Shown here one piece after another: positions 41,909-45,347 of a stretch of 64,000 nucleotides of DNA. The stretch is from Myxococcus stipitatus. Lineage in GTDB: Bacteria; Myxococcota; Myxococcia; Myxococcales; Myxococcaceae. The notes below the pieces were generated by a model, which was not told the DNA's origin, searched no databases, and saw only the letters and a program-made list of their open reading frames with translations. Numbering within the stretch: the stretch's first letter is position 1; every line of letters starts with the position of its first letter. The DNA is taken from positions 9,548,001 through 9,612,000 of the forward strand of contig NZ_CP102770.1 of NCBI RefSeq assembly GCF_038561935.1, given 5' to 3'. The translations under genes were made by a program, and so were the position numbers.

Positions 41909-42616
41909 TCAGCTCGCCGTGCGCGGGCGGCGGATGCGGGCGACGAGCGCCTCGTAGGCCACGTACGACAGCGGCACCAGCAGGCCGAAGAAGACGGTGA
42001 GGCTGGTGAGGTACGGGAAGGCCAGGGGCTCACGCAGGTGGGCCCCGATGGAGGTGAAGAGCGTCGAGGGGTGGGTGAGGACATTCCAGCTGTTCCAGCG
42101 CTCCACCCGGCCCAGGTAGATGCCGTAGCCACACAGCACGGAGGTGACGCCGACGAAGGCCCACGCGGTGCGGCGGCCCCAGCGCTCCTCCAGCCATTGC
42201 TTCCACACCTCCAGGGACAAGAGGCCCAGGAGCCAGCCGGTGGCGACGAAGAGGGTCATGAGCGCCACGTCGAACCAGATGGGCACCACGGGCCGCTGGT
42301 GCACGTGGATGAAGTCCGTGAGGAGGTAGGGCGCGTTGGGGAACAGCGCCAGCCAGGCCAGGGCCATGGGCGCGAGCACCCGGAGGCCGTGGCCCCTGAG
42401 CATGAGGACCCGCGCCGCGAGGGCGATGACGTAGGGGGCCCAGGCCAGGACCAGGTTCCACACGAGGAACGCGTAGCTGGCGCTCTGACTCCAGTCGAGG
42501 CGGTAGGACACCATGCCCACGCCGATGGCGCTGCTGAGGGCCGCGGGCCACAGGCCGTGACGGCGCAACATGGACAAGAAGGACTCAGGAGTGGGCATGG
42601 CGAGGGGTGCGGTCAT
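41909..42616 (-). CDS. DUF1361 membrane protein
   Basis: 235 residues with six or seven hydrophobic helices. The family marks are ALFPNAPYLLTDFIHVHQRP with the preceding strand, then VPIWFDVAL, YGIYLGRVERWNSWNVLTHP. These are characteristic of DUF1361, an integral membrane family of unknown function. The ATG at 42616 is one of two possible starts; the longer form adds only ten basic residues. Confidence 0.9.
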   Translation of the reverse strand: MTAPLAMPTPESFLSMLRRHGLWPAALSSAIGVGMVSYRLDWSQSASYAFLVWNLVLAWAPYVIALAARVLMLRGHGLRVLAPMALAWLALFPNAPYLLTDFIHVHQRPVVPIWFDVALMTLFVATGWLLGLLSLEVWKQWLEERWGRRTAWAFVGVTSVLCGYGIYLGRVERWNSWNVLTHPSTLFTSIGAHLREPLAFPYLTSLTVFFGLLVPLSYVAYEALVARIRRPRTAS

Positions 42617-42781
42617 GAGGCCGCGTGCCCGTGGCCTCGTGACCACGGTGGAAGGAGTTCTGGAAGTCGGACGGAGAGCAGAGCAAGGCGCGGGCCAGGG
42701 ACGCGCGCCATGGTAGGCGGGGATGCTCGTGCACCTGGGGTACTCGCGGACTCGAGAGACGCGGCTCGAGGCCTGAGGGAC

Positions 42782-43918
42782 TCAGGACCGAGGGAATCCC
42801 AGCAGGCCGAGCAGTCGGGCTTCCACGTCCGGATGACTCTCGAGGGCCAGCTTCATCCAGTCCCTGACGAGCTTCGAGATGTCGCCGCGGGCCTCAGGGG
42901 TATCCAGCGGGTGAAACATCGGGCCACGCCAGACGATGGAGCAGGAACGGAGGCTCATCACCACCGTGAGCCGCTCGGACAGCGCCGTGTTCGAGAATGC
43001 GCGACTCACAGGAGGCAGCCCGAGGGCCTTCCTCCTGTCGCGCAGGACCGTGCGCAGTCCTCGGAAGAGCCCCTCATGGTGCGTGCCACCTCGGGGGCTG
43101 GACTCGAAGTTGGCCCAGGAGAGGATGCTCGCGCCGGCGGGGTCCTCGACCCACTGAAGCGCGAGGTCGACCTCGGTCTCCCTGATACGTCCATTGAAGA
43201 CCCACGGCTCGTGCAGCGGCCGGGAGGACGCGGCGCGCTCCGCGCACAGGTCCCCGAGTCCGTGCTCGCGACGGAAGGAGACCTCTGTCCCCGAGACCTC
43301 GTCACGCAGACGCCAGGTGGCCGAGGGTGCCAGGGCGGAGAGTGCTGACAGGCGTTCCGTCAGCCCGGTCCAGGAGAACTCCTGGGGCCCGTCGAAGATG
43401 GACGGGTCCGGGGTCAAGGTGATGCGCAGCCCGGAGCCCGAGGACGGAGGAGCGTGGTCGGGCGAGGCGTCGCCGAGCGACTCCACGGGGAGCCCTTCGC
43501 GAAAGGTCCGCCGCCAGGTCTGCTCGCCAGACCAGGCGATGACTTCCAGGGAAGAGGAGAGCGCGTTGACCAACCCCAGGTCGATGCAGGGAGTCTGAAG
43601 GAAGAGACCGTGAGGCATCCTCGGGGGCGGCCCTCCCGCGATGTCGACGTTCACGAACGTGAGCCAGGACTCCAGCTCCGCGAAGGGCGGCACGCCCGCG
43701 GGCGTGGGCCAAGGCAAGCCGTCGAAGACAACGGAGCAGGCACCGTCCGATGAAAGCGCGGCCGAGACCTCCCGCAGCCTGGAGTCCCTCGCGCCCATGA
43801 CACCCAACATGAACAGGGACTCGACGAGCCGGGATTTGCCCGACACCGTCGTGTCGCCGATGTACATCGCCGGCCGCCGGCGGATGGACCGGCGAAACCC
43901 GTCTGAGGTGAAGAGCAC
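42782..43918 (-). CDS. GyrB/ParE-like protein, ATPase residues lost, no TOPRIM domain
   Basis: 378 residues from a GTG. The chain follows the N-terminal half of DNA gyrase B: RRRPAMYIGDTTVSGKSRLV equals 'vRkRPgMYIGdt', GLVNALSSSLEVIAWSGEQT equals the 'vsVVNALS..l' block, TWRRTFREGLP follows, then ALQWVEDPAGASILSWANFE and RGGTHHEGLFRGLRTVLRDR, equal to 'EGGTHleGF..aLtr'. But the ATP-site Glu/Asn (E-x-x-DN) and the DNGRGIP loop are gone (DGLPWPTPAGVP), and the QTK loop is replaced. It stops before TOPRIM. So it should not hydrolyse ATP or cleave DNA. Start is uncertain (GTG 43918 or ATG 43867). It follows the protease gene by 73 bp. Confidence 0.8.
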   Translation of the reverse strand: MLFTSDGFRRSIRRRPAMYIGDTTVSGKSRLVESLFMLGVMGARDSRLREVSAALSSDGACSVVFDGLPWPTPAGVPPFAELESWLTFVNVDIAGGPPPRMPHGLFLQTPCIDLGLVNALSSSLEVIAWSGEQTWRRTFREGLPVESLGDASPDHAPPSSGSGLRITLTPDPSIFDGPQEFSWTGLTERLSALSALAPSATWRLRDEVSGTEVSFRREHGLGDLCAERAASSRPLHEPWVFNGRIRETEVDLALQWVEDPAGASILSWANFESSPRGGTHHEGLFRGLRTVLRDRRKALGLPPVSRAFSNTALSERLTVVMSLRSCSIVWRGPMFHPLDTPEARGDISKLVRDWMKLALESHPDVEARLLGLLGFPRS

Positions 43919-43991
43919 TCCTGGACAATACCAGACAGCGCGCCGGGACTCGGCGGAATGTGACGCCAGGATTTGAGTCGACCGGATGAGG

Positions 43992-45116
43992 CTAGCGGCG
44001 TCGCTTGACTCCCGCGAAGAGCAACACCCCGAGGAGCGCGAGCCCCGAGGTGCTGGAGCAACCACCCTCCGGACCTCCTGGCGGTTGCTCCGGGTCCGGA
44101 GGAGGTGGCGCGCAGGGTGTGAAACAACGGCAGGCCTCCTCCCCTTCCGATTCCCATCGCGCGCAGAGGCTCCCCTCGCCGCAGGCCGCATCCTCGGTAC
44201 AGGTCCGCCCGAAGGCGCCTTCACGCAGGGTCGGAAGGAGACAGCGGCCTGGCCCTTCCTGTGTGGCGACACAGGAGAGTCCCACGGGGCACTCCGTGTC
44301 ACGCGTACAGGTGTCCCGGCACAGGGCCTCGGGAGCGAGTGTGGGCTCGATGGGAGGCGGAGAGGTCGCGAGGAACGGAAGGATAAAGCCCTCGCGCAAC
44401 ACATCCACGCGCAGGTTGACGGCTTCGGCGCGGCAGGCCACGTCACCGCTCACTGTGAGCCCCGCGAGCACCTCGCGGCCCGCGCCGTCGCTCATGAACA
44501 CCGGACCACCACTGTCTCCCACGCAGCTCATGCCGGGCCCGGGTTCCGCGCGAAAGACCGTGGCCTCCAGCCAGGTCACCTGGAGCGTCCCCTGCCTCCG
44601 TCGCCCCGCTGGGGCGTTCGCGTCCTTCGTGTCGCCATAGCCCACGGCGCGCACGCGCGTGCCCCCCGTCAGCGCCAGCGGCGATTCCGACAAGCGAGCG
44701 GGCTCGACCTGCACGGGGGTCGCGAGCCGCAGCAGTGCGGCATCGTGCGTATGGGTGCGAGGCACATGGCGCGGGTGGATGACCGCTCGCGACACTCGCA
44801 CGAAGCGCCCGGACGCATCCGGCGTGGGCAGCAGCGCGGGCCCCAGATAGACCTCGTACGCGCCTTCCACGCCGAAAAGGTCCAGGCAGTGCGCCGCCGT
44901 CAACACGACGTCGGGCGCGATGAGGACACCGGAGCAGAGCAACAGAGGGGAGGACTCGTTGCACCGCGTCCTCCGGGCAAGCAGCGCGACGGTCGCCACA
45001 TCGTCCGGTGCATCGGTTCCTTGCACGATGCGATGCGCGGACCGCGACGGCGCTGGTTCCACCGTCGGGGTACACGCGGCGAGGAACGCCAACACCATCA
45101 GCCCGAGGTGCGCCAT
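43992..45116 (-). CDS. secreted trypsin-like serine protease with MYXO-CTERM-like tail
   Basis: 374 residues. Signal peptide MAHLGLMVLAFLAACTPT, possibly lipidated at Cys15. The S1 protease starts IVQGT and has the full triad: His76 in LTAAHC, Asp125 in THDAALLRL and Ser202 in GDSGGP. A cysteine-rich EGF-like linker (CRDTCTRDTECPVGLSC) follows. The end reads GGCSSTSGLALLGVLLFAGV then basic residues, a MYXO-CTERM-like anchor (Cys, hydrophobic helix, Arg/Lys tail) used for surface sorting. An open frame extends 74 codons upstream but is antisense to the XRE region, so the ATG at 45116 is used. Confidence 0.88.
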   Translation of the reverse strand: MAHLGLMVLAFLAACTPTVEPAPSRSAHRIVQGTDAPDDVATVALLARRTRCNESSPLLLCSGVLIAPDVVLTAAHCLDLFGVEGAYEVYLGPALLPTPDASGRFVRVSRAVIHPRHVPRTHTHDAALLRLATPVQVEPARLSESPLALTGGTRVRAVGYGDTKDANAPAGRRRQGTLQVTWLEATVFRAEPGPGMSCVGDSGGPVFMSDGAGREVLAGLTVSGDVACRAEAVNLRVDVLREGFILPFLATSPPPIEPTLAPEALCRDTCTRDTECPVGLSCVATQEGPGRCLLPTLREGAFGRTCTEDAACGEGSLCARWESEGEEACRCFTPCAPPPPDPEQPPGGPEGGCSSTSGLALLGVLLFAGVKRRR

Positions 45117-45347
45117 GAGCCTGAGACCTCGGGTGATGACACCCTCGATGTTTCGTCCGAGGCAGGCACCTCTCACGGCATGTCCCCCAAGTTGCCCACA
45201 GCCCGCGTCATCGTAAGGCACGACGGGGCGCCTGCCCGTGGGAAGAAGCTCGACCCGAAGGGTGGGCTTGGGATGGGAACCTTCACCCTGCATCATCCGC
45301 ACACCCTCGTTACCTCTGGCAGCCCCGTCCACCCTCACCTTGCGCCC

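Follow-up and report, generated by a model that had tools for sequence, protein, structure and literature searches.

A free-standing form of the ATPase half of gyrase is already known from a crystal structure: PDB 3CWV, a Myxococcus xanthus protein released in 2008 as "DNA gyrase, B subunit, truncated", is a stand-alone GHKL plus transducer protein of ~370 amino acids, and literature searches found no published study of it or of a truncated GyrB. The gene described here is a variant of this kind from a sister clade, which differs from 3CWV in its genomic locus and encodes a protein only ~26% identical to it; from 3CWV it is clear that a member of the family can fold stably on its own. Few pseudo-enzymes descend from an essential drug target, and those that do are instructive; in this case an entire family, of which one crystal structure has been deposited, keeps the fold of the GyrB N-gate, drops its chemistry and evolves fast. 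The ligand of such a protein would point either to a new mechanism for controlling type II topoisomerases or to new weaponry against them.

Dimerisation of GyrB in its ATP-locked state needs both the N-terminal arm and ATP. Aminocoumarins need the GyrB ATP site, which the protein described below has lost, cystobactamids act on the GyrA–DNA side, and FicT modifies Tyr109 of GyrB. The ATPase domains of GyrB and ParE are targets of interbacterial toxins, namely Cpe1, which cuts their LHAGGKF loop, and Fic (PMC12136450). The Cpe1–Cpi1 and FicT systems also centre on GyrB/ParE ATPase domains contested between bacteria, but they are composed of toxins and small unrelated immunity proteins rather than GyrB-like decoys.

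The window, meaning the whole 64,000-nucleotide stretch of Myxococcus stipitatus DNA that was analysed, contains at 42782–43918 on the minus strand an uninterrupted reading frame of 378 amino acids that starts with GTG. The encoded protein matches Pfam DNA_gyraseB (PF00204, 8.5e-12) as well as gyrB and parE profiles; residues 11–366 align with positions 14–365 of the 639 in the NCBIfam gyrB profile at a score of 95 bits, far below the cut-off of 882. ParE and GyrB 43K chains from the PDB align with residues 10–367 (best 1.5e-22), and the resemblance to GyrB from the MYIGDT motif to the end of the transducer domain, reported in an earlier note made from the DNA letters, is borne out. A GHKL-like region (residues 1–210; 43289–43918, minus strand) precedes a transducer-like region that carries the PF00204 match (residues 220–369; 42812–43261, minus strand). 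Nothing is encoded beyond these two regions: Pfam searches of the protein found no HATPase, TOPRIM or C-terminal domain and, with a Qnr/MfpA-like protective role in mind, no pentapeptide repeats. An AlphaFold model built from four sequences, of moderate confidence (mean pLDDT 66) and uncertain at residues 88–112 (lid region) and 325–339 (QTK-loop region), aligns along its full length with 3CWV and with GyrB/ParE 43K structures in Foldseek (E ~1e-23), 3CWV giving the best TM-scores among the top matches (0.71/0.76); compared with GyrB 43K, the model gives Z values of 28–30 and an rmsd of ~4.4 across ~340 residues. The protein shares with the 43K domain its fold, the order of its elements and the scaffold residues R13, R15, P16, G21, W256, N270 and H280 (E. 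coli numbering, used throughout for canonical positions), and by fold and significant sequence match it belongs to the GyrB/ParE superfamily by descent.

It differs from GyrB and ParE in the ATP site, in the N-terminal arm, which is shortened, and in the missing TOPRIM and C-terminal domains. We aligned it residue by residue, together with its stand-alone family, against 18 canonical GyrB/ParE proteins. In the GHKL-like region E42 is replaced by S34, D45 by M37, N46 by L38, E50 by G42, D73 by F65, R76 by L68, G77 by P69, G114 by M101, G119 by D113 and T165 by L164, K103 is deleted, and comparison of the alignment, the model and PDB structures shows the ATP lid rebuilt; in the transducer-like region the QTK loop reads P-M-F, with Q335 replaced by P333 and K337 by F335. 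The replacement of the DN of the ATP box, the DNGRGIP loop and the QTK loop thus stands as first described, and the five positions proposed for comparison with the GyrB and ParE of the same genome (Glu42, Asn46, Asp73, Lys103 and Lys337) read Ser, Leu, Phe, a gap and Phe. In the DNGRGIP loop D73, R76 and G77 are gone and G75 and P79 survive; one lid glycine is also retained (G117, here G104). The features of a functional GyrB or ParE ATP site (E42, N46, D73, G77, a GxxG lid, K103, Q335 and K337) are therefore not in place, and neither the gene itself nor a partner gene supplies TOPRIM and C-terminal domains. By its sequence the protein lacks the residues that gyrase uses for ATP binding and hydrolysis, and has no TOPRIM domain for joining GyrA or cleaving DNA.

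Such lesions could in principle come from a frame or sequencing error in an ordinary gyrB or parE, a possibility whose chance we put at practically nil; nothing was found in its favour. Intact, normal GyrB (G000:C1:338540) and ParE (G000:C1:3629473) genes are present elsewhere in the genome, and the two GyrB C-terminal domains that they encode are all the genome has. Around the window gene there is no stray piece of TOPRIM or of a GyrB C-terminal domain. Orthologues in other genomes (L035_2 in G070, 89% identical; L036 in G061, 78%; L037 in G072, 61%) are collinear with the window gene, similar in length and replaced at identical sites, and this shared anatomy across assemblies excludes a frame error as the source of the missing motifs. 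A supposed second copy in the same genome (G000:C1:2919209, E 0.47) proved to be a chance match inside a phosphotransferase-like gene.

The family was searched for in 96 genomes of the bacterial family, 145 of the order and 195 of the phylum; among the matches listed, stand-alone members (~350–390 amino acids, in two clades) occur only in Myxococcaceae. A tree was built from the 18 canonical GyrB/ParE proteins and 30 stand-alone ones. In this tree, whose branches are long, the 30 group in a single clade (SH-aLRT 100), apart from ParE and next to GyrB, in answer to the GyrB-or-ParE question of the earlier note. The window protein shares with the family of 3CWV its length, the absence of TOPRIM, the lost ATP site and the common clade. 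For the genomes compared, tree and alignment show a single origin of the family, in the GHKL-plus-transducer part of GyrB.

Across this family E42, N46, D73 and K103 are each kept in none of the 30 members, against 18 of 18 canonical proteins, which makes the loss of ATP chemistry a family trait rather than private decay. Q335 and G119 survive in one member each and T165 in three (all in 18/18 canonical proteins), K337 in 14 and R76 in 10; the lid segment is lost, with neither Y109 nor K103 kept in any of the 30. L091, a relative of 3CWV, keeps K337, R76 and E50, which are replaced in the window protein. W129, W135 and R44 are near-invariant and specific to the stand-alone family. Together with the tree and the domain counts, the alignment upholds the earlier view that this is a stand-alone, dead GHKL half that could not serve as a functional topoisomerase subunit. 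In composition the family is poor in lysine (2–8 residues against 19–31 in the GyrB/ParE of the same bacterial family) and rich in tryptophan (6–14 against 3–5).

The distribution of the family is patchy. Of 27 Myxococcus genomes, 9 have clade 1, to which the window gene belongs, at the locus of that gene; further clade 1 relatives lie at other loci (L043, L044 and the broken L045, L046). Another 12 carry clade 2, to which close relatives of 3CWV belong (E 8e-177 to L052). The two clades never share one of the Myxococcus genomes searched and six have neither, a non-overlap that may reflect phylogenetic structure only. A scan of the genome collection matched only three Myxococcus loci, all within the set already known. 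Tandem copies occur in G070 (two), G058 (two), G059 (four, three of them intact and one frameshifted) and, in clade 2, G064 (three). The second and third G059 copies pair in the tree with the two G058 copies, so the duplicates predate the species split and have been kept through speciation. The frameshifted fourth G059 copy lies at L041:11203–12214 (+), and in G006 one copy is interrupted by an in-frame TGA (L045:9672–10733, minus strand).

By YN00 the window gene has dN/dS values of 0.26, 0.31 and 0.29 against its counterparts in G070, G061 and G072, and pairs from across the family give 0.11–0.33; the flanking 5'-nucleotidase, DUF1361, HD and GNAT genes give 0.01–0.07 and the adjacent protease 0.17–0.20. 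Purifying selection thus acts on the protein, although its rate of change exceeds that of the genes around it. Change is most rapid in the C-terminal 78 residues, where dN approaches or exceeds dS in four of five pairs, a comparison made by NG86 on small regions that is only suggestive. These values bear on the idea of a decaying duplicate without function, to which the stop or frameshift in some copies, the patchy presence and the lower GC3 of the GyrB-like gene (0.86 against 0.97 in flanking genes) lend something; dN/dS well below 1 at long distances, the family-wide invariants, the orthologous tandem copies retained in two species and the conservation of an upstream block make it very unlikely. 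Given its dN/dS and the promoter-like block described below, the gene looks functional, and overall we regard it as real, functional by selection and of ordinary fold.

At the locus the GyrB-like gene or genes lie between a trypsin-like protease and a DUF1361 protein. The protease gene (43992–45338, minus strand, the same strand as the window gene; Pfam Trypsin) is the upstream neighbour and encodes a lipoprotein-like signal and a MYXO-CTERM-like tail; the DUF1361 membrane protein gene (41909–42646, minus strand; Pfam DUF1361) follows downstream after a gap of 135 bp and is conserved in 18 of the 27 Myxococcus genomes, whether or not a GyrB-like gene is present. In nine Myxococcus genomes protease and DUF1361 genes are kept and no GyrB-like gene stands between them. 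An operon or functional unit with the protease was considered and rejected, the protease being equally present without the GyrB-like gene. In the M. xanthus group, a search by way of the HD-domain gene for the corresponding vacant site gave no match. Immediately upstream of the window gene, a conserved block, GTCTGGTATTGTCCAGGA (43919–43936, minus strand), abuts the start codon and contains an extended −10-like TATTGT six bases before the GTG. Every clade 1 array at the locus has, in front of its first copy, the block GTCTGGTATTGTCC, with some six bases between its end and the start codon; it is kept there in L034–L042, where protein identity falls to ~40–50%. Scans for sigma-70 consensus promoters and for terminators gave no match. 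The arrangement suggests a predicted promoter, namely an extended −10 element of a leaderless mRNA, a reading that also speaks for GTG 43918 as the start codon.

Around the copies in other genomes we noted several isolated neighbours. A Fic-domain gene (Fic_N, Fic and winged helix; L041:6594–7643, plus strand) lies directly upstream of the G059 array, in that genome only; in G072 a 66-amino-acid SUKH (SMI1/KNR4 immunity-type) stub (L037:9069–9269, plus strand) closely precedes the GyrB-like gene; and a PAAR gene lies beside a copy in G014. Upstream of one clade 2 copy is a Tox-PAAR-like gene, separated from it by an IS-like transposase (L047:1882–6437, minus strand); a link to type VI secretion through this gene was discarded because the orthologue L048 has no PAAR gene and the IS-like element intervenes. 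No toxin, immunity gene, secretion gene or mobile element consistently adjoins the copies across the loci compared.

The earlier note had offered two roles for a dead GHKL half. One is regulation of gyrase or topoisomerase IV in the same cell, in which the protein would bind GyrB, ParE or a T-segment and damp the N-gate. It has the fold of that gate (Z ~28–30 to GyrB 43K structures) and adjoins GyrB in the tree, and the MfpA–GyrB47 complex (PDB 6zt5) shows that the ATPase region can serve as a docking site. However, the arm and ATP required for ATP-locked dimerisation are reduced or lost, and mixing with GyrB through a normal ATP-locked N-gate is hard to reconcile with a shortened arm and the loss of both ATP site and TOPRIM. 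The two clades together reach only 21 of 27 Myxococcus genomes and are absent at the locus in related species; gyrase, by comparison, is universal and slow to change, and the GyrB-like gene evolves much faster than expected of a partner of a conserved enzyme. We consider a regulatory role of this kind unlikely.

The other role is self-protection, with the protein acting as a decoy for gyrase-targeting drugs or toxins made by myxobacteria. The GyrB/ParE ATPase domains are genuinely hit by Cpe1 and Fic (PMC12136450), and the Fic gene upstream of the G059 array fits such a role. The segments that these toxins contact (the lid loop LHAGGKF and Tyr109) are, however, missing from the family, which disfavours a decoy for the two known protein toxins of the GyrB ATPase domain, as the Cpe1 and FicT sites lie in the lost lid segment. 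The Fic gene is confined to one genome, and no biosynthetic cluster was found near any copy in the neighbourhoods of ~20 relatives, where the earlier note had proposed to look. Self-protection thus gained no positive support and is in our view distinctly unlikely.

With neither ATP-site residues nor TOPRIM, the protein would work, if at all, by binding. We tentatively favour, at a little short of an even chance, a stand-alone pseudo-ATPase derived from GyrB that acts as an accessory binder of the conflict or immunity type rather than as a housekeeping regulator. The GHKL-plus-transducer half of GyrB would have been kept as a fold and its ATP chemistry discarded; action, if any, would come from binding a partner and not from catalysis, and the protein might serve as a decoy or titrating module for a ligand in biological conflict. 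The promoter-like block, solo position, tandem copies, patchiness and fast evolution lean weakly towards such a binder and away from a housekeeping regulator. Against it, the suggestive neighbours (Fic in G059, the SUKH stub in G072 and PAAR in G014) are one-off, and fast evolution could equally reflect weak constraint on a minor regulator, with some copies decaying. The PADLOC anti-phage defence models had no match to the window protein at E values up to 1. A bolder version of the conflict-type binder, which we hold to be improbable, is that Myxococcaceae amplify the pseudo-ATPase in tandem as a fast-evolving repertoire of decoys or immunity proteins, directed at an agent yet to be discovered whose target is the GyrB N-gate; Streptomyces linear plasmids would then carry a parallel version that evolved independently.

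The Streptomyces proteins are annotated as "ATP-binding protein" (~390 amino acids, L099–L102) and are also free-standing and GyrB 43K-like. All four have N46 replaced by Tyr and Q335 by Ala or Ser; unlike the window protein, they keep E42, D73, R76 and the lid glycines. They form a clade of their own, which makes an independent origin likely. Their genes lie at L099:3920–5095, L100:2929–4107, L101:2920–4110 and L102:2920–4089, and two of the four are less than 5 kb from a plasmid end and adjoin a helicase-associated-domain gene. The encoded proteins are strongly acidic, with net charges of −18 to −24.
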